Assembly: GCA_036323355.1 (NCBI GenBank)
Contig: AP028876.1
Coordinates: 2,046,001 to 2,110,000, forward strand
DNA length: 64,000 bases
Source: Gottschalkiaceae bacterium SANA
GTDB taxonomy: Bacteria; Bacillota; Clostridia; Tissierellales; GPF-1
Direction of reading: 5' to 3'
Part shown: positions 6,333 through 57,208 of the stretch, piece after piece
How the letters are laid out: every line of letters begins with the position of its first letter
How positions within the stretch are numbered: position 1 is the first letter of the stretch
Notes under the pieces: model-generated
Told to the model about the DNA's origin: nothing
The model's database searches: none
What the model saw: only the letters and a program-made list of their open reading frames with translations
Position numbers and translations under genes: made by a program

Positions 6333-7574
6333 TTACGCTTGTTCTTTTAGAGCAAAATCCGCATAAGAGATTGCCCCATGTTCTTCCAAGTCCAAACCGA
6401 TATTTTCTTCCGTATCCGTCACACGTAAGCCAATTGTAAGATCAACTGTCTTGAATACAAGGAATGCCATAACAACCGTCCAAGTCATTACCGCCCCAAC
6501 GCCTACCGCTTGTGTGATCAGTAATCCCGCGCCGCCACCGTACAGCAATCCACCGCTTTCTGCGAATACACCAACCATCAAAGTACCAAATGCACCATTA
6601 ATTCCATGTACAGCCACCGCGCCAACCGGGTCATCAACCTTTAGCACGTTTTCCACAAACTCGCTGCCAACAACAACCAAAACACCTGCAAATGCACCGA
6701 TAATTGCCGCACCGCCCGGTGTAACAATGTCACAACCTGCAGTGATTGCAACCAGACCTGCCAAGGCTCCATTCAAGGTCATGCCTACATCCGGTTTCCC
6801 AGATCGAACCCAAGTGAAGAACATAGCGAAGATCGCTGCGACTGCCGCCGCCAAGTTTGTTGTCACGAAAATCTTGCTGATCGCCAACATATTATCTGTT
6901 CCTGCCGCGGCTAACTGCGAACCTGGGTTAAATCCAAACCAACCAAACCAAAGGATGAATACACCCAAGGCTCCAAGAGTTAAACTGTGTCCAGGGATGG
7001 TATTCGCCGTACCATCTTCATTGAATTTTCCAATTCGAGGTCCCAAGATCTTTGCGCCAACCAAGGCTGCCCATCCACCAATCGAGTGAACAACGGTAGA
7101 ACCGGCAAAATCATGAAATCCAAGTTGCGACAACCATCCACCACCCCAGATCCAGTGACCGACCACCGGATAAATCAATCCAGAAATCAAGACGCTATAG
7201 ACTAAGTAAGAAACAAACTTGGTTCTTTCCGCCATGGCTCCAGATACAATTGTAGCTGCTGTTGCACAAAATACCGTTTGGAAGATCAAAAATGCAAAAG
7301 TTGGTATGCCAAAGTCATAAGTTCCCTTTACAAATAGATCAGGAATACCGATAAATCCATTGACTGAAGTACCAAACATCAGTCCAAATCCCAGAACCCA
7401 AAACATGACTGAGCCAACAGAAAAGTCCATAATATTTTTCATAATAATATTTCCAGCATTTTTTGCTCGCGTAAACCCAGTTTCCACCATTGCAAACCCG
7501 GCTTGCATGAAAAACACCAAGGTTGTTGCAAATAAAACCCATACGGTATCAATTGAAGTGATTAATTCATTCAT
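6333..7574 (-). CDS. amt: Ammonium transporter (Amt family)
   Basis: 413 residues with eleven predicted membrane spans, the standard Amt fold. The N-terminus starts outside with no signal peptide. The twin pore histidines lie in DFAGSTVVHSIGGWAALVGA and GAVAVHGINGAFGTL. It carries ammonium across the cytoplasmic membrane. SD GGAGG lies 8 bases before the ATG. There is no glnK/PII gene beside it, unlike many amt loci. Transcription appears to start about 110 bases upstream at a strong promoter and to pass a terminator-like hairpin, which suggests attenuation control. Confidence 0.95.
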   Translation of the reverse strand: MNELITSIDTVWVLFATTLVFFMQAGFAMVETGFTRAKNAGNIIMKNIMDFSVGSVMFWVLGFGLMFGTSVNGFIGIPDLFVKGTYDFGIPTFAFLIFQTVFCATAATIVSGAMAERTKFVSYLVYSVLISGLIYPVVGHWIWGGGWLSQLGFHDFAGSTVVHSIGGWAALVGAKILGPRIGKFNEDGTANTIPGHSLTLGALGVFILWFGWFGFNPGSQLAAAGTDNMLAISKIFVTTNLAAAVAAIFAMFFTWVRSGKPDVGMTLNGALAGLVAITAGCDIVTPGGAAIIGAFAGVLVVVGSEFVENVLKVDDPVGAVAVHGINGAFGTLMVGVFAESGGLLYGGGAGLLITQAVGVGAVMTWTVVMAFLVFKTVDLTIGLRVTDTEENIGLDLEEHGAISYADFALKEQA

Positions 7575-7634
7575 CTCTCATGCCTCCTCGTTTTTTTCAT
7601 CTGCAGGTGTTTACTTGTATCCGGATACAAAAAT

Positions 7635-7664
7635 AGGCGTCCAGGGGATTAACCCTGGACGCCT
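7635..7664 (-). promoter_or_regulatory. Hairpin in the amt leader, possible attenuator
   Basis: A 12-bp perfect stem (7635-7646 with 7653-7664) with a 6-base loop, followed in the minus direction by ATTTTTG. It lies between the strong promoter at 7688-7716 and the amt start. It could be the terminator of the pfpI gene upstream, an attenuator of amt, or both. Nitrogen genes of Clostridia are often controlled by ANTAR antiterminators at such hairpins, but the loop lacks the usual ANTAR A1/G4 pattern. Confidence 0.55.
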
Positions 7665-7687
7665 TTGCCCAATCAAATGATAAACCA

Positions 7688-7716
7688 ATTATAAGAGGCA
7701 ATTTCTTTGTTGTCAA
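7688..7716 (-). promoter_or_regulatory. Consensus SigA promoter for amt
   Basis: Perfect TTGACA (7711-7716) and perfect TATAAT (7688-7693) separated by exactly 17 bases. It begins 5 bases past the pfpI stop codon. Confidence 0.85.
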
Positions 7717-7720
7717 GTGA

Positions 7721-8239
7721 CTATTTTAAATTTTCGATCAATTCCCTGCAGTATTCAGGTAAATCCGGTGGTCTGCGAGACGACACAATATGTCCATCTG
7801 TGATGGCCGGTACGTCTTTCCAAATTGCCCCTGCATTCTGCATATCATCCCGTATTCCCGGAGTGCTCGTCACCACTTTTCCCTTTAAAATATCTGCAGA
7901 AATCAAGACCCAACCCGCATGGCAAATCTGACCGATTGTTTTTTCTTGCACATCCATTTTTTTTACCAATTCCAAGACTTCTGGAAACCGCCTAAGCTTA
8001 TCCGGTGCCCATCCGCCCGGTACCAAGATACCATCGTATTCCTTGTCCAGAGCATCAGAAAAAGAGAACTCCGAGATTGCAGGAACCCCATATTTCCCTT
8101 TGTACTTGATTCCAGCCCCTTCTCCGACCAATTCTACAATCGCACCCTCTTCTCGCAAACGATAAACCGGCACCCATAATTCCAGGTCCTCAAAATCATG
8201 ATGCACCAATGCACAAATCCTTTTGCCTTTTAACAACAT
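7721..8239 (-). CDS. DJ-1/PfpI family protein
   Basis: 172 residues from the chosen ATG at 8239, which has AAGGAG in good position; a longer frame to 8275 has no SD. It is a single DJ-1/PfpI domain with the nucleophile-elbow Cys at residue 106 (GQICHAGW), followed by the neighbouring His, and an acidic residue near the N-terminus (HHDFEDLE). The family includes intracellular proteases, chaperones and deglycases, so the activity here is not assigned. It is monocistronic, with TATAAT near 8266-8271 just upstream. Confidence 0.88.
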   Translation of the reverse strand: MLLKGKRICALVHHDFEDLELWVPVYRLREEGAIVELVGEGAGIKYKGKYGVPAISEFSFSDALDKEYDGILVPGGWAPDKLRRFPEVLELVKKMDVQEKTIGQICHAGWVLISADILKGKVVTSTPGIRDDMQNAGAIWKDVPAITDGHIVSSRRPPDLPEYCRELIENLK

Positions 8240-8281
8240 GAAGATTCTCCTTTTTATTTTTATTATATCATGCAAAAAAAA

Positions 8282-8309
8282 GGATGGAGCATATAAGATC
8301 GCTCCATCC
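8282..8309 (-). terminator. Terminator after cstA
   Basis: A 9-bp stem (GGATGGAGC with GCTCCATCC), 10-base loop, followed by TTTTTTT in the minus direction. Confidence 0.88.
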
Positions 8310-8338
8310 CTTTTAGGTAAACTAGTTTTACACTAATT

Positions 8339-9763
8339 CTATGCTACTTTTTTATTTTTTGATTCATCATTTTCTGTTTGCGATGCTTTTCCTGCTTTCA
8401 TCATGAAAAAAACAAATGTTGCAATCGCAACTGCGATCCCTGCGGGAACACCGAAAGACTCAGGTAAGCGTAGACCTTCAGGCGCTACCAAGATATAACT
8501 TGTGATAACCGCAGTCATAAAGGTTGCTGGAACTGTTGCAATCCAATGCAATTTCTTCTCTTTCACCAAGAATGCTGCTGATGCCCAAAGCATAATCGTT
8601 GCCAAAGTTTGATTTGACCATGCGAAATATCTCCAAAGAATCGAGAAGTCGATAAAGCACAATGCCAAGCCTATTGCAAACAATGGAATCGCTACCTTGA
8701 AACGATTTGCAAATGCATCTTGCTTCAATCCTATAGCATCAGCAATTGCCAAACGTGCACTTCTAAAGGCTGTGTCACCCGACGTAATCGGTGCTGCAAC
8801 AACACCTAAAACTGCCAATACGCCACCTACAGGTCCTAACAATGAACTAGAAATTGTATTTACAACAACCGCTGCAGAACCTGCTTCTTTCAACGCTTCC
8901 ACAGAACCAAAGAAACTCATAGCTGCGGCAGCCCAAATCAAAGCAATCAAACCCTCTGCAATCATAGCACCATAGAATACACGGCGACCTTGCTTTTCGT
9001 TCTTTAAGCAGCGTGCCATAATTGGTGACTGTGTCGCATGAAAACCGCTAATTGCACCACATGCAATGGTGATAAACAAGAATGGGAAGACTGATTTTCC
9101 AGCCGGATGCATATTTGTTAATGTGATTTCTGGAATGGTGTATCCCTTTAAGATAATTCCACCGATAATACCAACACCCATAATCAAAAGAGCGGCACCA
9201 AAAATCGGATAAATCTTTCCAATTACCTTGTCTACTGGTAAAACAGTCGCTAATAAGTAATATGCAATAATGATTCCTAAGAAGATAAATTTATTGATTC
9301 CAGTCATGTTTTGCAAAAGCCCTGCTGGTCCGTTGATAAAAACAACACCAACCAGAATTAAAAGCAAAACTGAAAATACGCGCATCACTTGTTTTGCACT
9401 TGTTCCCAAGTAACGACCTACGATTTCGGCAATTGTATCGCCACCATGTCGCATAGAAAGCATCCCTGCGAAATAATCATGAACGGCTCCTGCGAAGATG
9501 GACCCCAAGACAATCCATAAAAATGCAATCGGTCCCCAAAGGGCTCCTGCAATGGCGCCAAAGATCGGACCAAGCCCAGCAATGTTCAAGAATTGAATCA
9601 AGAACGCTTTTTTCCAACCCATTTCAACGAAGTCTACACCATCTGCTTGCGCAACAGCCGGCGTTTCTCTGTTTTCGTCTGCCCCAAAGACTTTCTCAAC
9701 AAATTTTCCATAAACCAAATATCCAACCAACAATGCCACTACTGATAATAAAAAAGATACCAT
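8339..9763 (-). CDS. cstA: Carbon starvation CstA family transporter
   Basis: 474 residues, the short Gram-positive form. It has many membrane spans and the conserved N-terminal stretch GYLVYGKFVEKVFGAD, then HDYFAGMLSMRHGGDTIAE. Characterised members (CstA, BtsT) import pyruvate or peptides. A LytS/LytTR two-component pair lies immediately upstream. That matches the BtsS/BtsR-BtsT arrangement in which a pyruvate-sensing kinase induces the transporter, so pyruvate uptake is the best guess. SD AGGAGG is close to the ATG. Confidence 0.92.
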   Translation of the reverse strand: MVSFLLSVVALLVGYLVYGKFVEKVFGADENRETPAVAQADGVDFVEMGWKKAFLIQFLNIAGLGPIFGAIAGALWGPIAFLWIVLGSIFAGAVHDYFAGMLSMRHGGDTIAEIVGRYLGTSAKQVMRVFSVLLLILVGVVFINGPAGLLQNMTGINKFIFLGIIIAYYLLATVLPVDKVIGKIYPIFGAALLIMGVGIIGGIILKGYTIPEITLTNMHPAGKSVFPFLFITIACGAISGFHATQSPIMARCLKNEKQGRRVFYGAMIAEGLIALIWAAAAMSFFGSVEALKEAGSAAVVVNTISSSLLGPVGGVLAVLGVVAAPITSGDTAFRSARLAIADAIGLKQDAFANRFKVAIPLFAIGLALCFIDFSILWRYFAWSNQTLATIMLWASAAFLVKEKKLHWIATVPATFMTAVITSYILVAPEGLRLPESFGVPAGIAVAIATFVFFMMKAGKASQTENDESKNKKVA

Positions 9764-47806: not shown

Positions 47807-48616
47807 TTAATAAACTTTTTCGACCCGATACTCTGCCAAATCGCGTTCCATCTCTACTGCAAATCCATGTTGATAAAGTGAGGCATCAAATGTTGAATCG
47901 ATCAAAATCCATTCTTCGCGCTCTGCATCATACACTTCATTCCAAGCATGATAAACGTCCTTCGTGTTCGAATACCCCATCACTAACTTAGTCGGTATAT
48001 TCAGACTTCGAAGCATCGAAGCCATTAATGACGAATAGTCATAGCAAATTCCATTTCCATTTTCAAGTGTAGCTGCATTGTTAGGCAAGTACCCGGTTTG
48101 CACAGCTTTAGCCTTGTCATAATCATAGGTAATGTTCTCTATCATATATCGATGAACCGCTTGAACCTTTGCCCAATCGCTTTCAATTCCTTCAGTTAAT
48201 GCAAGCGCTAACTCAGCCGCCTCGTCTTCTGCATCCCATCGAATACTTTGAACCGATGTTAAATATGGTAGCAACGAATCAAGCTCATCTACTTCTACCG
48301 TTTTCATGCCGATGGATCGATACGAATTTCCTGACGTATTTTGATAGATTCCAATTTGATATGTGCCTATGCCTTCATCAATTCCATAAGACTCAAATTC
48401 TGCAAATCGGTCATAATCATAAAACTCTGGATTTTGTCCTTCATAGGCAACCATAATTTTAATCGTGTCTGCTTCATAGCGATCATCCAACTTCACTCGA
48501 ACAACCCCGGTTTCTGCTTGGTCAAAATCATAAACGATCGCCGCATCGGCGAAAGCAAAACCACTCGTACAAATTAAAGACAAAGTCAATAAACTTGCAA
48601 CTAAAATTTTACGCAT
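47807..48616 (-). CDS. Secreted transglutaminase-like protein under c-di-GMP control
   Basis: 269 residues from the ATG at 48616 (GGAGG 8 bases upstream). N-terminal signal peptide (RKILVASLLTLSLICTSGFAFA, cut near residue 23). The central region is unassigned. The C-terminal transglutaminase/protease core has the triad C191 (GNGICYDYSSL), H223 (VYHAWNEV) and D240 (ILIDSTFD). It could crosslink or cleave surface proteins. Two tandem c-di-GMP-I riboswitches and a promoter lie in its leader. The two LPxTG proteins upstream are under the same second messenger, so they are plausible substrates. Confidence 0.88.
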   Translation of the reverse strand: MRKILVASLLTLSLICTSGFAFADAAIVYDFDQAETGVVRVKLDDRYEADTIKIMVAYEGQNPEFYDYDRFAEFESYGIDEGIGTYQIGIYQNTSGNSYRSIGMKTVEVDELDSLLPYLTSVQSIRWDAEDEAAELALALTEGIESDWAKVQAVHRYMIENITYDYDKAKAVQTGYLPNNAATLENGNGICYDYSSLMASMLRSLNIPTKLVMGYSNTKDVYHAWNEVYDAEREEWILIDSTFDASLYQHGFAVEMERDLAEYRVEKVY

Positions 48617-48631
48617 TAAAAAAACCTCCAT

Positions 48632-48710
48632 TCGGTAACCGGCTATCTCCCTAAGAAGACCCTTGGTTTTGCGTCCCTGTTTTACAACAGGTTTGCCTTT
48701 ATCGGTAGAC
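48632..48710 (-). ncRNA. c-di-GMP-I riboswitch (GEMM), promoter-distal copy
   Basis: Reading on the minus strand: GATAAAGGCAAACC, a hairpin (CCTGTTGTAAAACAGG), GACGCAAAACC, a longer stem, and AGCCGGTTACCGA at the 3' end. These are the conserved blocks and order of the GEMM aptamer. Its 3' end lies directly before the SD of the transglutaminase-like gene (GGAGG at 48625-48629), so it may act on translation or through a short U-tract just after the SD. Confidence 0.92.
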
Positions 48711-48745
48711 GTTCCTCTTTATCGTGACAATAAAAAAACTCCCTT

Positions 48746-48830
48746 TCGGCAACTGGCTACCATCACTTTCGCGAAGGTCCTATAGTTTTGCGTCCCAATT
48801 TTTCAATTGGTTTGCTAGTATCGTTTGAAG
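48746..48830 (-). ncRNA. c-di-GMP-I riboswitch (GEMM), promoter-proximal copy
   Basis: Second aptamer of a tandem pair: TAGCAAACCAATTGAAAAATTGG, then GACGCAAAACTATAGG and a stem closed by a GCGAAAG segment, ending GTAGCCAGTTGCCGA. A GAAA-looped hairpin followed by TTTTTTT directly after it (about 48732-48754) looks like its own expression platform. Confidence 0.9.
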
Positions 48831-48858
48831 CGTCTCACCAATATTTACTTGTAAATTT

Positions 48859-48887
48859 ATTATACCCTCCTCAACCGGCATTGTAAA
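48859..48887 (-). promoter_or_regulatory. SigA-type promoter for the tandem-riboswitch transcript
   Basis: TTTACA (48882-48887) and TATAAT (48859-48864), spacer exactly 17. The first aptamer begins about 30 bases downstream. Confidence 0.8.
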
Positions 48888-48931
48888 CATCTGAATGGTA
48901 AATTCATGTTAATTTCATATAATAGTAAAAA

Positions 48932-48959
48932 AATGGGAGAAGCTACAGCTTCTCCCATT
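48932..48959 (-). terminator. Terminator after the 953-residue surface protein gene
   Basis: A 12-13-bp stem (AATGGGAGAAGCT with its complement), small loop, then TTTTTTT in the minus direction, 8 bases past the stop. Confidence 0.9.
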
Positions 48960-48966
48960 CATTAGT

Positions 48967-51828
48967 TTACTCGGTTTCTTTTTTAAATAGATATCCAAAT
49001 GTTACCATACTGAACCCTAAAATCAAGGTCAACCATGGGGTTGCTTGTCCTGTGTTTGGCAAGTCTCCATCAGCCAATGGTGTTTCAGTTAATGGAATAA
49101 TGATCTCAGGTGGTTCAATTGGTGGCGGTGCAGGTGCTTGTACAAATTTTGCAATAATGGTTTTATCATCATCCATCTGAATCTGTCCACCGCTTACATC
49201 TGCTCCATCAGGACCAATCCATCCATCAAACACCCATCCACTTCCTGGATCTGCTGTAACATCAACGATTGTTCCTGGAAGATAGTTTTGACTTCCAACA
49301 AATGGACTTATTGTTCCATTGCCTTCAATACTGATTTTTAAACGGTTTCGAAGGATTGGTGGTGGCGGTGTCGAGTACTCCTTAAAGACTGCTGTGATCT
49401 CCTTATCTTCATCCATCACAACCTGCTCATTATTCACATCACCGATCCATCCATCAAAATACCAACCAGGATCTGCAGAGGTGAAAAGATCAACAACGAG
49501 TGCTTCTTCACCTATTGGATATTGATGATCACCTTCATTCGGATCTGTAATCCCACTACCTTGAATATTTACAGTTAAGGTGACCATTTCCACCTCTTCT
49601 TCGTTGAATAATGCGGTAATCCAACGGTCTCCATTCATCTCAATCGTTCCATTCGAAACAACTGATCCATGGGTCCCAACCCAATCCACGAAATACCAGC
49701 CGGATCCAGCAATTGCATCCAAGTTTACGATTTCGCCAGGTTCATAAGAATGAGAACCTGGAGTTGGGTTTGTTGTTCCATTCCCATCAACTACGATATA
49801 CAAGGTGTATAATTCTATTTGATCCGGTTCAAATACTGCTGTTGCCCTTGTAGTCTCAAGTACTGTAATACTTGATGTTGCTGTGTTTGCTGAGTCCACA
49901 GGACCCAACCATTCAACAAAGTGCCATCCGCTTGCAGGAATTGCAAGCAAGTCAACTACCGTACCTTCTGTTACCAGTTCAGTTCCCGAAGGGTTGGTTG
50001 AACCTTGTCCAATATGCGTTACGGTTAGTGAAACCATATTTGGTGGGATTTCAACAAAGACGGCTTCTACTTCTGTATTGCCTTCAATAACTACAAGTGT
50101 ACTTGCACTTGCCGGTGATGCGACAGGACCGGTCCAATGGCTAAAGGTCCATCCCTGAGCAGGAACTGCTGTCAGACCAATTTCATCGCCATAATTGACT
50201 GTGCTGTTACCTGAAGGAGTGGTTGTCCCTTGCCCAATATGAGTCACGGTCAAGGTGTAGTCAATCATTTCAAATACAGCTTCTACTTCTTTGTCTTCAT
50301 CCATTAGTATTGTCGTTTGGCTACTTCCATTCGATGCGACTGGACCTAACCATTCAACAAATTCCCAACCCATATCTGGAATTGCTTCAAGAATTACACT
50401 TGCTCCAGAAGTGTATTGATGAGAACCAGGTGTTGGAACAGTCGTTCCATTTCCATCTACTGTAATTGTCAATCGTACCATGTCCGGTATGATTTCTTCA
50501 AATTGAGCAACGATCACTTTATCGTTATCAATTATAATTTCATTTCCAGCAATATCCCCGGCATCTGGTCCAGTCCAACCAACGAAGAACCAACCAGGAC
50601 TAGGTGTCGCTGTCAATGGAACAAGTGCTTCAAATGGATATAAACCTGTCCCATCCGGATCTGTGCTTCCGCTACCCGTATGAGAAACATCCAATTCATA
50701 CATGTTAATTTCAAATACGGCTGTAACTTCTGTCATTCCCAAAATTTCAACTCTTGTCATTGGATCATTTGCATCCTCAACCGGTCCTTGCCATTCAACG
50801 AAATGCCAGCCTGTTGCAGGAGTTGCTTCAAGGTTTACCATTTCCTCAAAATCATGGCTACTTGTTCCGTCAGGACTTGTTGTCCCCTGACCAGTATGAT
50901 CCACAATCAAGTCGTATTGGTTGATTTCAAAAATAGCTGTTACATGAGTATTTTCCAATATTTCAACTGTAGTTGTTGGATCGAGTGAATCATCTACCGG
51001 TCCTTGCCACTCTACAAAATGCCAACCTGTTGCAGGTACTGCTTCAAGGTTTATACCCTCTTCAAATTCATGGGTACTTGTACCACTTGGTGAGGTGCTG
51101 CCTTCACCCATGTGATCAACGAGCAAGTCATACTCATTTCGTTCAAATACCGCTGTTACTTCTGTGTAGTCTTCAATTAAAACGCTTGTATCTGCACTGC
51201 CACTAGATGCTACTGGTCCTTGCCATTCAACGAAATGCCAGCCTGTTGCTGGATCCGCTTCAAGATTAACTTCTGTTCCTTCTTCATAAGAATGTGTTCC
51301 TTCTGTAGGGTTTGTTGTTCCTTCGCCCTCGATAGAAACATCTAGATCAAAACTTTCAGGTGTACACGTAATGTGCAAGCTACCATGCATAACCTCTTGG
51401 CTTGAACCTGAAGGTGGGAACCATTTGATATCGATATCAATTGTTCCATCTTCACAATCTTCGTCTGTCAAGTCAATCGTAAAACTATGCTCTTGTTGAA
51501 TGTCTCCTGTATATGGGTCATCTCCTAATTCATAGTCAACGCTAGCAGATGTTGCACCTACTTCAGCGGGATAACCAATAATCGTAACTTCCAATTCATC
51601 CACTCCGGGAGCAAGTGTCAAATAGAAATCATAATTTATACCATTATTTGTATACTCGCCTTCAACATCAAAGGCGATACCTGCTGAAGAATCTGGTACG
51701 GATCCCGTTGCTTTTACTTTTACAAATTCATCTGCACTAAAGGTTCCACTGCCAGAAGCAGCGAAGCCACTGCTAATTGATCCAAAAACCAATAAAATAG
51801 CTAATATGATACTCAGTGTTTTTTTCAT
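48967..51828 (-). CDS. LPxTG-anchored surface protein with ten InlB-type beta repeats
   Basis: 953 residues. Signal peptide 1-23 (ILAILLVFGSISSGFA). A unique N-terminal beta domain runs to about 158. Ten tandem InlB B-repeat-like units of about 72-76 residues follow (159-895), each with a GxGTTxP start, GWxFVxWxGP core and TAVFE end. Then come a Pro-rich stretch, LPNTG (923-927), a hydrophobic span and the tail KKETE, a standard sortase sorting signal. Such repeats make stiff stalks or adhesins. SD GAGGAG lies 8 bases before the ATG. The leader has a c-di-GMP-I riboswitch with a terminator. The last repeat and anchor region match the next surface protein. Confidence 0.92.
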   Translation of the reverse strand: MKKTLSIILAILLVFGSISSGFAASGSGTFSADEFVKVKATGSVPDSSAGIAFDVEGEYTNNGINYDFYLTLAPGVDELEVTIIGYPAEVGATSASVDYELGDDPYTGDIQQEHSFTIDLTDEDCEDGTIDIDIKWFPPSGSSQEVMHGSLHITCTPESFDLDVSIEGEGTTNPTEGTHSYEEGTEVNLEADPATGWHFVEWQGPVASSGSADTSVLIEDYTEVTAVFERNEYDLLVDHMGEGSTSPSGTSTHEFEEGINLEAVPATGWHFVEWQGPVDDSLDPTTTVEILENTHVTAIFEINQYDLIVDHTGQGTTSPDGTSSHDFEEMVNLEATPATGWHFVEWQGPVEDANDPMTRVEILGMTEVTAVFEINMYELDVSHTGSGSTDPDGTGLYPFEALVPLTATPSPGWFFVGWTGPDAGDIAGNEIIIDNDKVIVAQFEEIIPDMVRLTITVDGNGTTVPTPGSHQYTSGASVILEAIPDMGWEFVEWLGPVASNGSSQTTILMDEDKEVEAVFEMIDYTLTVTHIGQGTTTPSGNSTVNYGDEIGLTAVPAQGWTFSHWTGPVASPASASTLVVIEGNTEVEAVFVEIPPNMVSLTVTHIGQGSTNPSGTELVTEGTVVDLLAIPASGWHFVEWLGPVDSANTATSSITVLETTRATAVFEPDQIELYTLYIVVDGNGTTNPTPGSHSYEPGEIVNLDAIAGSGWYFVDWVGTHGSVVSNGTIEMNGDRWITALFNEEEVEMVTLTVNIQGSGITDPNEGDHQYPIGEEALVVDLFTSADPGWYFDGWIGDVNNEQVVMDEDKEITAVFKEYSTPPPPILRNRLKISIEGNGTISPFVGSQNYLPGTIVDVTADPGSGWVFDGWIGPDGADVSGGQIQMDDDKTIIAKFVQAPAPPPIEPPEIIIPLTETPLADGDLPNTGQATPWLTLILGFSMVTFGYLFKKETE
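49144..51354 (-). repeat. Ten tandem ~220-bp repeats encoding InlB-like units
   Basis: Repeats 1-3 (about 50706-51354) are very close at DNA level. The word TTCAACGAAATGCCAGCC recurs identically near 50797 and 51227, with a near copy near 51010. Repeats 4-10 are more diverged. This suggests recent duplication at the N-terminal end and possible length variation by recombination. Confidence 0.8.
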
Positions 51829-51877
51829 TGCTTTCTCCTCTCATCTTACTTTTACCTATGATGATTTCTCAGAATAT

Positions 51878-51913
51878 AAAAAAAGTCAGGCTGCCTCAAA
51901 TTAGCAACCTGAC
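51878..51913 (-). terminator. Riboswitch terminator for the 953-residue protein
   Basis: A 10-bp stem (51885-51894 with 51904-51913, one G-U), 9-base loop, then TTTTTTT. Its 5' arm is the 3' strand of the c-di-GMP aptamer, so aptamer and terminator exclude each other. Confidence 0.85.
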
Positions 51914-51985
51914 AATCATAGTTTCCCTTAGACTCATGGCTTTGCGTCACAGTCTTTCGACTGTTTTGCTTTTTGGGCTTTGCCC
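51903..51985 (-). ncRNA. c-di-GMP-I riboswitch (GEMM) for the 953-residue protein
   Basis: Minus strand: AAAAAGCAAAACAGTCGAAAG, then ACTGTGACGCAAAGCC, a stem, and GTCAGGTTGCTA at the 3' end. It has the family's hairpin with a GAAA loop (AGTC/GACT) and the GACGCAAAGCC block. A GGGC/GCCC hairpin overlaps its 5' border. The overlap with the downstream terminator predicts that ligand binding permits read-through (ON switch). Confidence 0.92.
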
Positions 51986-52026
51986 TATGTATTCTAAGTG
52001 GAAAAAATTAATATGTAGTTATTACT

Positions 52027-52032
52027 ATTATA
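52027..52032 (-). promoter_or_regulatory. Probable -10 element for the riboswitch transcript
   Basis: TATAAT preceded by GG, about 40 bases before the aptamer. No convincing -35 at 17 bases; a TTGTAA further up is too far. The surrounding 52040-52150 region is A/T-rich and otherwise empty. Confidence 0.45.
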
Positions 52033-52150
52033 CCTTAATTATTACATTTGAATCATTACAAACAAGATCTCAATAAATATTTTTTTGTCCTTATGATTCT
52101 ATCGAAAAACCAACTAACTGTATCAAACACATTTTCTCATATGACAAGGA

Positions 52151-52180
52151 AAGAAGCCTATCTAATCGGATAGACTTCTT
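52151..52180 (-). terminator. Probable terminator after the 841-residue surface protein gene
   Basis: A stem of AAGAAG and CTATC with their complements, one internal mismatch, 6-base loop. The T-run is short (TTT), so it is weaker than others here. Confidence 0.55.
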
Positions 52181-52210
52181 CAATAAACGAATATGCTAAA
52201 CCACTCTCTT

Positions 52211-54736
52211 CTATTGATCATCATTCTTTCTGGTCAAAGTTCCTACCATCATAAAGATCAAACCAATCCCCAAAGATTCAATCGGGAATGCTTGTCCAGT
52301 ATACGGTAAATCTCCATCACCCAAAGGTGTTTCAATCAGTGGTATTTCAATTTCTGGCGCCTCCAATGGCGGTGCTTCTGGCAAGATCGTTGTCTCGAAA
52401 CGAGCTATCAATATCTTATCATCATCCATCTCGATTTGCTCGTTAACAACTTCCGCTCCATCAGCTCCAAACCAACCTGCAAATGTCCAACCCAATGCAG
52501 GAGTAACTGTCAGATCAACCAAAGTGCCAGGATTGTAATTCTGGCTTCCGACAAATGGATCAACGGTTCCATTTCCTTCAACACTAATTGTCAAGGTATG
52601 GCGAACAATCAAACCGCCTCCTCCTGTTTGTATTGGCGGTGGCGAAGGCTCAGTGAAATTCGCAGTAATACTCCGATCTTGATCCATTTGGACTTCAATC
52701 AAAGTTTGAGTTTCTTGTCCCTCATCAACATCTCCAGTCCAATCAATAAATGAATATCCCGAATCTGCAATCGCTTCAACCATGATCGTTGTCCCACAAG
52801 TCACTGTTAATGGACCCTCTGGATCTGTAATACCATTACCGTTCGTAGCAATAGTCAACTCATAGTAGAGCGGCATAAATACAGCCTCAAGGTCTAAATC
52901 CCCTTGCATTTCAAATGTAACTGATAGGTCTGCCGTTTCCATAAACCAACTTGCACCATTTGTTGCAACCCATCCATAAAATTCAGAACATGCCCCTGGA
53001 GTTGCTGTTACAGTTACTACAGTTCCACAAGTAACCGTGGCACTCGTACCCCATCCAATAATGGTAGCATCGCCATCACCTTCACCAACTGCTCTGACCG
53101 TCAGAGTTACTGGATCCGCTTGAGGATTCAGACTGAAATTTGCATAAATTGTCTGATCCATTTCATCCATCATATACGGTATCATCCTATTTGAATTGAA
53201 GGGTTCTCCCCCAGGCTCATACGACCAACCTTCAAATAGCGAACAACTACTCGGTGTTGCGCTTACCCAAATTGTTTCACCACAAGGTGCTGTTGCTGAA
53301 GCAGGAGAAACCGTGCCATAACCGTCACCTGCTGTTAAGACAGTCAGTGTCGTGCTCATCTGAGGATCCCAATCAAAGCTCGCAGTAATCGTCATATCGT
53401 TATAGAGATCAAATGTAATAGTCTCTGCAGTCGGATCTAGCACCTCATCCGGTACACCCGTCCACCCATTAAAGAGTGTACAGTCACCAGGTGTAGCCGT
53501 TACTGAAACCGGCTCCCCACAAGCAACCGTAACACTTGTGGTCGAAACCTCATAGTTCCCTTCTCCGGCTGTTTCAACGGTGAGAGTCACATCATCCTTC
53601 AAATCAAAATATGCTGTAACTGCAGTAGTCGCCATCAATGGAAACGTAATTGTACTTCCACTTACCGTTCCACCTTCGACTTTACTCCAGTGAGAATACT
53701 CAGAGCACATATCAGGCTCTGCTGTCAACTCAATTAGCGTTCCACAAGGATAGCTTATTTGTTCGAATTCTCCCGAGTCAATAGTCCCTGTGCCCTCGCC
53801 GGCAGTCGACCACGAAACTGGATAAGTTTCATCACTCAATTCAAAGTGAGCATATACCGTTGTGTCGACAGTAATCGCAAAATCATGAATAGCCTCACTT
53901 GAAATCGGGGTTCCATCTTCTTCTTCCCATTGAATGAAAATAGAACATGGACTTGCGATCGCTTCTATACTCATTGAGTCATCACAAGGCATCTCAATTG
54001 GACTAGGAGGATTCGTATACCCCTCACCATTTCCAACAACTTCCACAGTTAACATTGGTAAGTCGAGCTCCACAAAATAGGCTACAATATCTGTATAATC
54101 ATCATCCATATAGAAGTCGACAGAACTAGCATCCGTGGCAACTCCCTCCGGTAGCCCGCTCCAATAATCGAATCCCCAGCAAGGATCTGCATATGCTGTT
54201 AAATCAACTAAGCTTCCACATGTCACACTTCCTGCAGACACATTGGATTCAATCCATCCGCCTCCATCAACACCATATGCAAGATTGTAATGAAGTATCT
54301 CGCTAAAACAAACCGCCAATTTCTTATTCCCATCTAAATCGACAGTAAGGGTTACAGGATCCATGCTGCTGCCTACTGTTAGTTTGTTGCCATTTACCTC
54401 AGCTTCTATAAACTCACAACAATCGCCTGGTGTTGCTGTCAAGATAATCTGCGCATGATTTGGTGCTTCTATAATATCACCATTATGTACTTCCCCAGCC
54501 TCTTGACTATCTCCATTAATAGAGTCTAAGTAAAGTTCTCCACAACCTTTAATGCTTACAGTTAGCTTCTTAATAACGCATTTACCATCGGTTGTGATAT
54601 CGTCCGTGCCATCATCCAATCCACCGTCCTTCTCAGCAGGCACTGTCAAAGCGGTAGGATCTTCTATCGCAAACCCTGTTGTTACAATGCCCGTAAGTAA
54701 AATAAGGCAAAGCAGAATACTAAATAATTTTCTCAT
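52211..54736 (-). CDS. LPxTG-anchored surface protein with Cys-paired InlB-type repeats
   Basis: 841 residues. Signal peptide 1-23 (ILLCLILLTGIVTTGFA). About nine InlB-like repeats follow (55-780). In most of them a Cys at the strand start (xCG) pairs with a second Cys just before the GW position, for example ACGEPVSVTATPGDCTLFNGW. The last repeat lacks both and closely matches the last repeat of the 953-residue protein. Sorting signal LPYTG (810-814), hydrophobic span, tail TRKNDDQ. SD GGGAGG. Leader with a c-di-GMP-I riboswitch. The sortase gene lies just upstream. Confidence 0.9.
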   Translation of the reverse strand: MRKLFSILLCLILLTGIVTTGFAIEDPTALTVPAEKDGGLDDGTDDITTDGKCVIKKLTVSIKGCGELYLDSINGDSQEAGEVHNGDIIEAPNHAQIILTATPGDCCEFIEAEVNGNKLTVGSSMDPVTLTVDLDGNKKLAVCFSEILHYNLAYGVDGGGWIESNVSAGSVTCGSLVDLTAYADPCWGFDYWSGLPEGVATDASSVDFYMDDDYTDIVAYFVELDLPMLTVEVVGNGEGYTNPPSPIEMPCDDSMSIEAIASPCSIFIQWEEEDGTPISSEAIHDFAITVDTTVYAHFELSDETYPVSWSTAGEGTGTIDSGEFEQISYPCGTLIELTAEPDMCSEYSHWSKVEGGTVSGSTITFPLMATTAVTAYFDLKDDVTLTVETAGEGNYEVSTTSVTVACGEPVSVTATPGDCTLFNGWTGVPDEVLDPTAETITFDLYNDMTITASFDWDPQMSTTLTVLTAGDGYGTVSPASATAPCGETIWVSATPSSCSLFEGWSYEPGGEPFNSNRMIPYMMDEMDQTIYANFSLNPQADPVTLTVRAVGEGDGDATIIGWGTSATVTCGTVVTVTATPGACSEFYGWVATNGASWFMETADLSVTFEMQGDLDLEAVFMPLYYELTIATNGNGITDPEGPLTVTCGTTIMVEAIADSGYSFIDWTGDVDEGQETQTLIEVQMDQDRSITANFTEPSPPPIQTGGGGLIVRHTLTISVEGNGTVDPFVGSQNYNPGTLVDLTVTPALGWTFAGWFGADGAEVVNEQIEMDDDKILIARFETTILPEAPPLEAPEIEIPLIETPLGDGDLPYTGQAFPIESLGIGLIFMMVGTLTRKNDDQ

Positions 54737-54828
54737 TCTTTCCTCCCTTCTCCATAAGTTTCATAATTATGATCTTTTTTGAAAAAATTAAAATTGTTTC
54801 TATAATTGGATTTTTTTTCAATTAAAAA

Positions 54829-54862
54829 ACCGACCACCATCCTTTCGGTAATGGCAGCCGGT
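54829..54862 (-). terminator. Riboswitch terminator for the 841-residue protein
   Basis: A long stem (54829-54842 with 54847-54862, with wobbles and a 2-base bulge), GAAA loop in the transcript, then TTTTTTAATT. The upstream arm is the 3' end of the c-di-GMP aptamer. Confidence 0.8.
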
Positions 54863-54916
54863 CGACAATTTCTGCACCAAGCTTTGCGCAACAATATCAT
54901 GTTTTGCCTTTTTCAT
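54846..54916 (-). ncRNA. c-di-GMP-I riboswitch (GEMM), divergent, for the 841-residue protein
   Basis: Minus strand: AAAAAGGCAAAACATGATATTG, stem to TTGCGCAAAGC, second stem, then CCGGCTGCCATTACCGA. The usual GACGCAAAGC block reads TTGCGCAAAGC and the 3' end has extra bases, so this copy is more diverged than the other three but keeps the block order. It is followed by its own terminator. Confidence 0.8.
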
Positions 54917-54953
54917 TACTACAATCCGACACCTAAGCATTAATTTATTCTTA

Positions 54954-55105
54954 CAAAAAAAGATGAGTAGGAAGATAGCGATGGGGAGTTTACTCATTTA
55001 TCAAGGGCAGGTTAAATGGTAATTCCTACGTAACAGGAAAATCACTACCTTCCATTTACACACCGTGAATAGAAATGTACAAAAATACATCTCATTATTA
55101 TTATA
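54954..55105 (-). promoter_or_regulatory. Leader segment with promoter-like and terminator-like elements
   Basis: Between the sortase gene and the riboswitch. TATAAT (55100-55105) has an imperfect -35 (TTGAAG at 15 or TTGTTT at 19 bases). A two-stage hairpin follows (TAAATGG near 55058 with CCATTTA near 55015, inner TTCCT/AGGAA). Then comes a stem ATGAGTA/TACTCAT (54963-54997, 21-base loop) with a run of T. The last is probably the sortase terminator, or a further attenuation step. No known riboswitch class recognised. Confidence 0.45.
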
Positions 55106-55145
55106 CCGACTCTACGCTTTCTTCAAACAATTTCCATCCATTCTC

Positions 55146-55808
55146 TTAGTCAGGAATATAGGCATGAATAATTAAACGATGGGTTGGATCAATCATTGGA
55201 TCACAGGTAACCAGGGTAAGCACACGAAAATCACCATTTCTATTTAAAACACTAATATCACTTGGCTCCACAATAATCTTCTCGTACACGACATACTCGT
55301 ATGAATACTCACCCGAGATAATTTGAATGACATCATTGTTTTCCAGTTCATCCAGTCGATTGAACAGCCTGCCAAATCGATGGGCTCGATGACCGGCCAA
55401 TCCCGTATTGCCATATTCCCCAAGAGAATCCGTATAGGAAATACGCCCGATCCCCTTTGCTAGTTGAGCATCCCCTGTACCCTCAATAATGGGATATTCC
55501 AAATCAATAGCAGGGATCCGAATCACGCCAATTACATCATCCGTTTGGTACTCAACATCTTCGTAGGCTTCCTCGGATTGATTTCTTCCATCCTGTAGCT
55601 CCATATCTTCAACTAAGCCTTGCACGCCAAGCTCTTCTATCTCTTCCGGCACGTAGTTAACCAGAACCGACTGCAATGCCATACTTTCTTCCAAATATTC
55701 TTCAGCCTGTTTTTCCGACTGCATATCTTGATATTTTCCCCAAACAAAGGGACTCACAATAATGAGTAATCCCGCTATAAAACAAAATACCGCTATTTTT
55801 TTTCTCAT
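55146..55808 (-). CDS. Class D-like sortase
   Basis: 220 residues. N-terminal membrane anchor (residues 5-23), extracellular linker rich in acidic residues (27-90), then the sortase barrel. Catalytic His140 (GLAGHRAH), Cys202 (TLVTCDP) and Arg211 (THRLIIHA) are all in place. It cuts LPxTG-type signals between Thr and Gly and links the protein to the wall. The two LPxTG proteins just downstream are the obvious substrates. Class D rather than A or B is inferred from size and the TLVTC motif. SD GAGGG. No riboswitch seen in its 90-base leader. Confidence 0.93.
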   Translation of the reverse strand: MRKKIAVFCFIAGLLIIVSPFVWGKYQDMQSEKQAEEYLEESMALQSVLVNYVPEEIEELGVQGLVEDMELQDGRNQSEEAYEDVEYQTDDVIGVIRIPAIDLEYPIIEGTGDAQLAKGIGRISYTDSLGEYGNTGLAGHRAHRFGRLFNRLDELENNDVIQIISGEYSYEYVVYEKIIVEPSDISVLNRNGDFRVLTLVTCDPMIDPTHRLIIHAYIPD

Positions 55809-55928: not shown

Positions 55929-56005
55929 TGGTGTGCCTGAAGGGATTCGAACCCCCGGCTTCTTGATTCGTAGTCAAGCACTCTATCCAGCTGAGCTACA
56001 GGCAC
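55929..56005 (-). tRNA. tRNA-Arg (ACG)
   Basis: Cloverleaf with acceptor GTGCCTG/CAGGCAC, anticodon loop CTACGAA, T-arm GGTTCGAATCC, encoded CCA. Last tRNA of the operon. A34 is normally deaminated to inosine by TadA. Confidence 0.96.
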
Positions 56006-56008
56006 ATA

Positions 56009-56083
56009 TGGCTGGGGTAACTGGATTCGAACCAGTGAATGCAGGAGTCAAAGTCCTGTGCCTTACCGCTTGGCGATACCCCA
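56009..56083 (-). tRNA. tRNA-Gln (TTG)
   Basis: Acceptor TGGGGTA/TACCCCA, anticodon loop CTTTGAC, T-arm GGTTCGAATCC, encoded CCA. Confidence 0.96.
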
Positions 56084-56093
56084 AAAAAAAAAG

Positions 56094-56179
56094 TGGTGCG
56101 GGTGAAGGGACTCGAACCCCCACGCTGTTAGGCGCTAGATCCTAAATCTAGTGCGTCTGCCAAATTCCGCCACACCCGC
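56094..56179 (-). tRNA. tRNA-Leu (TAG)
   Basis: Class II tRNA with long variable arm (CGCCTAACAGCG). Acceptor GCGGGTG/CACCCGC, anticodon loop TTTAGGA, encoded CCA. Confidence 0.96.
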
Positions 56180-56193
56180 GTAAAAAATTGAAA

Positions 56194-56269
56194 TGGTGAC
56201 CCATCGGCGATTCGAACGCCGGACACCCTGATTAAAAGTCAGATGCTCTACCAACTGAGCTAATGGGTC
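56194..56269 (-). tRNA. tRNA-Lys (TTT)
   Basis: Acceptor GACCCAT/ATGGGTC, anticodon loop CTTTTAA, T-arm CGTTCGAATCG, encoded CCA. Confidence 0.96.
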
Positions 56270-56272
56270 ATG

Positions 56273-56349
<77 letters not shown>

Positions 56350-56390
56350 CACATGTGTAAATGATTGTACGTGACAATATAAAATTGTAC

Positions 56391-56464
56391 TGGAGCGGGT
56401 GAAGGGAATTGAACCCTCGCGACTGGCTTGGAAGGCCAGGGCTCTACCACTGAGCTACACCCGC
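56391..56464 (-). tRNA. tRNA-Gly (TCC)
   Basis: Acceptor GCGGGTG/CACCCGC, anticodon loop CTTCCAA, T-arm GGTTCAATTCC, encoded CCA. Confidence 0.96.
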
Positions 56465-56467
56465 AAA

Positions 56468-56542
56468 TGGAGCGAAAGACGAGATTCGAACTCGCGACCT
56501 TCGCCTTGGCAAGGCGAAGCTCTACCACTGAGCTACTTTCGC
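56468..56542 (-). tRNA. tRNA-Gly (GCC)
   Basis: Acceptor GCGAAAG/CTTTCGC, anticodon loop TTGCCAA, T-arm AGTTCGAATCT, encoded CCA. Three bases from tRNA-Gly(TCC). Confidence 0.96.
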
Positions 56543-56549
56543 ATGGTTT

Positions 56550-56635
56550 TGGTGGGGGGGACTGGATTCGAACCAGTGAAAGCGCAGCTAACGGATTTAC
56601 AGTCCGTCCCCTTTGGCCAACTCGGGAACCCCCCC
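56550..56635 (-). tRNA. tRNA-Tyr (GTA)
   Basis: Class II form with long variable arm. Acceptor is seven G paired with seven C, anticodon loop CTGTAAA, encoded CCA. Confidence 0.95.
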
Positions 56636-56649
56636 ATATAATATTTCTA

Positions 56650-56725
<76 letters not shown>

Positions 56726-56774
56726 ATAATACTTTTCATACACCAGCGAAACTCAACCGTTTCATGGTGAAAAT

Positions 56775-56851
56775 TGGCGACCTAGAAGGGACTCGAACCC
56801 TCGACCTCCAGCGTGACAGGCTGGCATTCTAACCAACTGAACTACTAGGCC
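56775..56851 (-). tRNA. tRNA-Asp (GTC)
   Basis: Acceptor GGCCTAG/CTAGGTC, anticodon loop CTGTCAC, discriminator G, encoded CCA. Confidence 0.96.
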
Positions 56852-56856
56852 AAATA

Positions 56857-56932
56857 TGGTGGGCACTATTGGGCTCGAACCAATGACCCCCTGCTTGTAA
56901 GGCAGGTGCTCTCCCAACTGAGCTAAGCGCCC
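56857..56932 (-). tRNA. tRNA-Val (TAC)
   Basis: Acceptor GGGCGCT/AGTGCCC, anticodon loop CTTACAA, T-arm GGTTCGAGCCC, encoded CCA. Confidence 0.96.
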
Positions 56933-56958
56933 ATATTTGTGTCTTACTTGAATGAAAT

Positions 56959-57033
56959 TGGTGACCCTACCGGGATTCGAACCCGGGTTACCGCCGTGAA
57001 AGGGCGGTGTCTTAACCGCTTGACCATAGGGCC
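56959..57033 (-). tRNA. tRNA-Glu (TTC)
   Basis: Acceptor GGCCCTA/TAGGGTC, anticodon loop CTTTCAC, T-arm GGTTCGAATCC, encoded CCA. Confidence 0.96.
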
Positions 57034-57040
57034 TTTGTTT

Positions 57041-57128
57041 TGGTGCCGAGGACCGGAATCGAACCGGTACGATCGCAATGATCGCAGGATTTTAAGTCCT
57101 GTGCGTCTGCCAATTCCGCCACCCCGGC
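57041..57128 (-). tRNA. tRNA-Leu (TAA)
   Basis: Class II tRNA with long variable arm. Acceptor GCCGGGG/CCTCGGC, anticodon loop CTTAAAA, encoded CCA. Confidence 0.96.
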
Positions 57129-57133
57129 ATTTT

Positions 57134-57208
57134 TGGCTCTCAGGGTGGGACTCGAACCCACAGCCTACCGGTTAACAGCCGGTTGCTCCACCATTGAGCT
57201 ACCTAAGA
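57134..57208 (-). tRNA. tRNA-Asn (GTT)
   Basis: Acceptor TCTTAGG/CCTGAGA (one G-U), anticodon loop CTGTTAA, discriminator G, encoded CCA. First tRNA after 5S. Confidence 0.95.

Follow-up and report, generated by a model that had tools for sequence, protein, structure and literature searches.

A candidate c-di-GMP-controlled surface-assembly locus with a sortase, two LPxTG repeat proteins and a secreted transglutaminase-like protein

The locus described here raises the question of whether c-di-GMP, the "settle down" signal, governs not only the display of proteins on a bacterial surface but also an exported enzyme that acts on them there. It lies in a 64,000-nucleotide stretch of DNA (the window) from Gottschalkiaceae bacterium SANA, an anaerobic Gram-positive bacterium with a genome of 3.49 Mb, which among named organisms is most closely related to metagenome-derived Eubacteriales/Clostridiales. 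With 33 GGDEF matches, the genome is rich in c-di-GMP signalling. Four minus-strand genes, running sortase, A, B and TG, lie with a tRNA cluster on one side and a CAAX-protease gene on the other (Table 1), and gene calls and Pfam uphold the sequence-only reading of them as a sortase, two LPxTG proteins with InlB repeats and a secreted transglutaminase-like protein. Directly upstream of the sortase gene is a dense tRNA cluster (window 55932-57208), itself next to a complete 16S-23S-5S operon.

Table 1. Genes and leader elements of the locus, in window coordinates
Feature	Coordinates	Strand	Description
Sortase	55146..55808	-	220 aa; N-terminal TM; TLVTC active-site motif; leader without c-di-GMP aptamer
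Divergent aptamer, leader of A	54850..54918	-	c-di-GMP-I, 34.5 bits; no GAAA tetraloop in P2, P3 shortened
Predicted intrinsic terminator of A	54828..54863	-	3' strand of the A aptamer doubles as its 5' arm; -19.3 kcal/mol
Gene A	52211..54736	-	841-aa exported protein; 7 divergent InlB repeats; LPYTGQ sorting signal
Aptamer of B	51900..51980	-	c-di-GMP-I, 71.7 bits; canonical GAAA loop, UCUAAGG/CUAUGA receptor
Predicted intrinsic terminator of B	51885..51913	-	Overlaps the 3' strand of the B aptamer; -17.3 kcal/mol
Gene B	48967..51828	-	953-aa exported protein; 10 InlB repeats; LPNTGQ sorting signal
Promoter-like site of TG	48859..48887	-	Sigma-70-like, TTTACA-17-TATAAT, 11/12 matches
First aptamer of TG tandem	48745..48826	-	c-di-GMP-I, 68.3 bits; followed by AGGGAGUUUUUUU
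Second aptamer of TG tandem	48630..48706	-	c-di-GMP-I, 70.5 bits; abuts Shine-Dalgarno (UGGAGG)
TG	47807..48616	-	269-aa secreted protein; signal peptide, N-terminal beta domain, transglutaminase-like core, C191-H223-D240

The sortase (PF04203, E 3.5e-29, Pfam; the TLxTC motif is present in its translation) has no second copy detected elsewhere in the genome, and it stays under the NCBIfam class cutoffs, with 117.5 of the 160 needed for class C, 98.6 of 160 for class E and 79.2 of 165 for class D. The anchor pattern searched for was LPxTGQ, which leaves other LPxT variants outside; it occurs in the DNA at 8 places in the genome, and a sorting-signal tail follows only at A and B. The six further matches were rejected as anchors, since none has a membrane-spanning sorting tail. 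InlB-type repeats are essentially confined to A and B, and B is the only protein in the genome over the PF00746 cutoff. The entire detected sortase system of this genome is a single locus, which we count among the new points. Both proteins are acidic and lysine-poor, with Gln in several repeats, and the mature forms hold 11 (A) and 10 (B) Lys in about 800-900 aa, so that fewer sites for Gln-Lys crosslinking would be possible. Mature A has 18 Cys as opposed to 2 in B, and most InlB repeats of A carry a cysteine pair at fixed positions (e.g. VACGEPVSVTATPGDC), possibly forming one disulfide per repeat. The A protein of G001, a genome of the same genus, is matched by the locus's own B at 699 bits and by its own A at 365 bits (L046 3057-5573), a sign of fast divergence of A that suggests gene conversion or repeat exchange.

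With the Rfam covariance model for c-di-GMP-I (RF01051, gathering cutoff 35 bits), the earlier claim that type I leaders precede all three exported non-sortase genes proved right in substance and incomplete in detail, since it had overlooked the tandem pair at TG and the divergence of the A aptamer. The B aptamer and both TG aptamers lie above the cutoff. The A aptamer falls 0.5 bits below it, at a whole-genome E of 6.8e-5; its syntenic counterpart in G001 exceeds the cutoff at 40.2 bits, and in alignment the A leaders of the two genomes are nearly identical across the aptamer core and terminator. Lacking the GAAA tetraloop and having a short P3, the A aptamer may bind its ligand more weakly. 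Just ahead of it (window 54950-55000) stands TAAATGAGTAAACTCCCCATCGCTATCTTCC..., then a U tract, almost identical in G001 and conserved beyond the need of an ordinary sortase terminator. The second TG aptamer was also considered as a GGC variant with altered ligand (RF03167, 68.6 bits, cutoff 59, against 70.5 bits for RF01051), and this was rejected: the discriminating position reads GACGCAAA, as in RF01051, and the G at the GACGC-GAA position of the RF03167 consensus is absent. Across the whole genome, 4 of the 10 Rfam matches to c-di-GMP-I are packed into ~6.3 kb at the locus, a clustering that exceeds chance, and several of the others precede large exported proteins, such as an InhA-like peptidase and surface proteins of SLH or Ig-like type. 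No c-di-GMP aptamer was found in the sortase leader with Rfam.

For A and B, the leaders allow a prediction of the direction of control. In each, the predicted terminator draws on the 3' strand of the aptamer, so that a ligand-stabilised aptamer and the terminator would be mutually exclusive, and both leaders are predicted to be ON switches. The same exclusion logic has been described for Bc3-5, in which the terminator competes with P1 and P3 (PMC4759541).

What TG would do once exported is a harder matter. Although the gene is listed as 47807-48631, the ATG at 48616 is the likely start, because the one at 48631 falls on the final bases of the second aptamer. The protein carries a Transglut_core domain (PF01841, E 8.8e-21, Pfam), and C191, H223 and D240 are invariant in all 62 of the aligned TG sequences. 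A confident structural model from that alignment (pLDDT 93.9) finds its top fold match in TglA of S. pyogenes (9crn, Z 14.4, 137 residues, 2.7 A), followed by the Cytophaga protein 3isr (Z 14.2), Legionella LapG (4fgo, Z 11.7, 129 residues, 3.2 A), the pseudomurein endoisopeptidases PeiP (Z 11.2) and PeiW (Z 10.9), and the human transglutaminases FXIII/TG2 (about Z 11). Folds of this kind span crosslinkers, proteases and wall hydrolases; as far as sequence and model go, the intact triad and the fold would fit crosslinking and proteolysis alike. The presence of LapG among the best matches gives substance to the idea that TG is a protease, trimming the anchored proteins or setting them free, and so does in a Gram-positive cell the work of LapG, or that of ZmpI in Clostridioides difficile. 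There are precedents: c-di-GMP increases two sortase substrates of C. difficile and at the same time represses ZmpI, the protease that cuts them (PMC6200980), and in Pseudomonas, c-di-GMP restrains the cleavage of LapA by LapG (PMC3032545). Against this, a Pfam scan of TG at E 0.01 gave no match to the LapG sequence family (BTLCP, DUF920), and on the whole we regard a protease as unlikely, if well worth keeping in mind. PeiP and PeiW share the fold too, and it is conceivable, though rather improbable in our estimate, that TG has the cell wall or wall peptides as its substrate, working as an amidase, an endopeptidase or a peptidoglycan crosslinker that is co-regulated with the adhesins and never touches them.

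The sign of the TG switch bears directly on the protease question, because a protease would call for a TG riboswitch that is OFF, or one that is ON and serves maturation. There are promoter-like sites at A and at TG, a kind of site that is not enriched overall in the scan; the one upstream of TG means that TG can form its own transcript. In TG leaders generally, a U-run of at least 5 begins within 13 nt of 28 of the 34 upstream aptamers (random mean 1.0), and a terminator stem so close to an aptamer must take nucleotides from it, which suggests ON for TG and argues against the protease. In 42 leaders, 12-16 nt separate the end of the last aptamer from the TG start, a spread narrowed somewhat by our rule of setting the start codon downstream of the aptamer, and the Shine-Dalgarno lies directly behind the aptamer. 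This fixed geometry we also count among the new points. It could serve the opposite sign, since a P1 stabilised by ligand might sterically block the abutting Shine-Dalgarno, as a protease would have it. A search for a co-varying anti-Shine-Dalgarno in TG leaders found own and swapped duplex energies alike (p 0.70); pairing of the post-aptamer tail with the 5' strand of P3 amounts to 5-6 bp in most TG leaders, with p 0.26 against swaps; and a simple search for terminators between tandem aptamers returned mostly weak stems across loci. Since neither swap test is significant, the sign of TG is only a lean: the switch is probably ON, less securely than those of A and B.

If the four genes form a functional unit, the arrangement should recur. 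G001 preserves the synteny of the four genes and of every aptamer, and a second genome (G002) that of B and TG, up to the contig end. A wider view came from scanning 84,980 species genomes with a TG alignment, itself built partly from riboswitch-linked members; this yielded 80 TG loci, picked by protein similarity alone, in which a model made from 31 aptamers located 132 aptamers. Eighty-seven of these sit 0-450 nt upstream of TG, where a uniform distribution would place about 4. An aptamer ends within 100 nt of the TG start at 53 of the 80 genes, or in 32 of the 42 clusters formed at 55% identity, and 31 of the 80 loci have at least two aptamers. A sortase lies within 2 kb of TG in 30 of the 80 loci, 23 of the 38 sortases of TG loci lie within 500 bp, and in 24 loci an LPxTG protein accompanies the sortase within 10 kb. 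When 398 genomes were drawn evenly from the phylum, about 43 TG matches stood apart as a strong group of their own, at E below 1e-50. Among the best 30 of these, a sample to which the window genome belongs and whose species may in part also be represented in the 80 loci, aptamers were found at 26 and a sortase within about 1.5 kb at 13. Twenty more distant transglutaminases, meant as a negative control, turned out to have an aptamer in 13 cases and a sortase nearby in 2. Thus the riboswitch link is broader than the TG subfamily, and the sortase link is the narrower of the two (2/20 vs 13/30). The core conserved across relatives is the aptamer together with TG.

The company that TG keeps is far less constant. 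In other families, TG and c-di-GMP-I aptamers stand beside a sortase and unrelated surface proteins, such as SpaA-like repeats (L049), a TasA-like protein accompanied by a signal peptidase (L048) or a DUF11-like giant (L063), labels that come from reading the sequences and not from family scans; by Pfam, the LPxTG partners include SpaA, Cna/collagen-binding, DUF7507/DUF11, thioester and camelysin-like types. The enzyme is constant while the surface proteins vary, and partners without a common domain that could bear a conserved cleavage site speak against a protease. In L048, the TasA/camelysin-like gene (7230-8551), at a TG-sortase locus of another family, has its own c-di-GMP-I aptamer and adjoins the signal-peptidase-like gene. 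Five Saccharibacillus loci (L084, L108, L126, L134, L135) have several extra c-di-GMP-I aptamers around TG, and in two of them (L108, L135) TG is followed some 1 kb downstream by another TG-like gene.

These counts help with the remaining alternatives. Action on the wall alone would accord with the aptamer's presence at most TG loci when an LPxTG protein or a sortase is not near all of them, and the many TG loci without a nearby sortase are a fair counterpoint to any TG-sortase pairing; on the other hand, the sortase adjoins TG even where the riboswitch is missing (19-28 bp away in L114, L116, L118 and L127), which suggests action on sortase products. One could also suppose that independent c-di-GMP-regulated surface genes merely came to lie together by chance, seeing that A, B and TG each have a separate leader and the sortase has no aptamer. 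The synteny in G001 and G002 and the same association in other families and classes, for which the recurrence counts already speak, make this very improbable.

We are left, with a little more confidence than doubt, with a c-di-GMP-controlled surface-assembly locus that includes a TG acting on sortase-displayed proteins. At high c-di-GMP, the aptamers of A and B would fold, their terminators would be blocked and the two repeat stalk proteins would be made, to be anchored to the wall by the single sortase, unswitched here. Folding of the first TG aptamer would most likely prevent a terminator-like U-tract structure, and the second would most likely free the Shine-Dalgarno directly behind it, both turning TG on. 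The exported TG would then carry out acyl transfer through its C-H-D triad on the sortase-displayed proteins, most likely crosslinking them or otherwise modifying them covalently. The coordinated module proposed by the sequence-only reading is thus borne out for A, B and TG as far as aptamers go, with predicted ON terminators for A and B only, and it gains from the synteny within the genus and from the recurrence across Bacillota of the aptamer-TG core with a nearby sortase. It has to be narrowed at the sortase, which is without an aptamer and behind a tRNA cluster, so that only the substrates and TG are switched. More tentatively, and with doubt outweighing confidence, one may imagine a widespread and undescribed system of the Bacillota: by way of tandem RNA switches, c-di-GMP would give the go-ahead to an exported transglutaminase, and this enzyme would covalently link sortase-anchored proteins with one another or with the matrix. 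If this is true, there are biofilm surfaces that are enzymatically crosslinked under c-di-GMP control.

In Bacillota, secreted enzymes of the transglutaminase fold recur as targets of c-di-GMP-I riboswitches, and we found no paper in the open literature on the function of the TG family. That TG is repeatedly accompanied by a sortase and LPxTG proteins provides a concrete substrate hypothesis, and a genome in which we detected a single sortase and two substrates, alongside one TG, offers a minimal case in which to test the question of TG function. The sequence-only reading knew of no description of this exact set, and the open literature, subscription papers being outside our scope, likewise yielded none that brings together a transglutaminase, a sortase and a c-di-GMP riboswitch; the recurrent TG-sortase-LPxTG association we therefore count as new. 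The pairing of tandem c-di-GMP-I with COG1305 is not new. A published survey tabulates tandem c-di-GMP-I upstream of COG1305 transglutaminase-like genes in Bacillota with an enrichment value of 1.08e-34 (PMC12452182); as with TG here, tandem or triple aptamers precede a transglutaminase-like gene, but the table deals with the gene only, and the passages covered say nothing of a sortase, of LPxTG partners, of the geometry of the platform or of the fold.

Control of wall-anchored proteins by c-di-GMP-I, and tandem c-di-GMP-I, are likewise known (PMC6200980, PMC4759541). In B. thuringiensis, Bc3-5 of cspABCDE is a tandem (triple) c-di-GMP-I ON switch for wall-anchored surface proteins, as proposed here, although the main text of that paper mentions no transglutaminase or sortase (PMC4759541). 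C. difficile resembles our locus in that c-di-GMP riboswitches raise sortase-anchored adhesins (CD630_28310 and CD630_32460) and also control a secreted enzyme acting on them (PMC6200980); it differs in that the adhesins have class II aptamers and that ZmpI, repressed by c-di-GMP, is a zinc metalloprotease with no transglutaminase fold. The LapD/LapG/LapA system is Gram-negative, it depends on the protein receptor LapD and no riboswitch, and LapG is a protease of another family (DUF920); yet there, too, a surface adhesin is placed under c-di-GMP by way of a transglutaminase-fold cysteine enzyme (PMC3032545).
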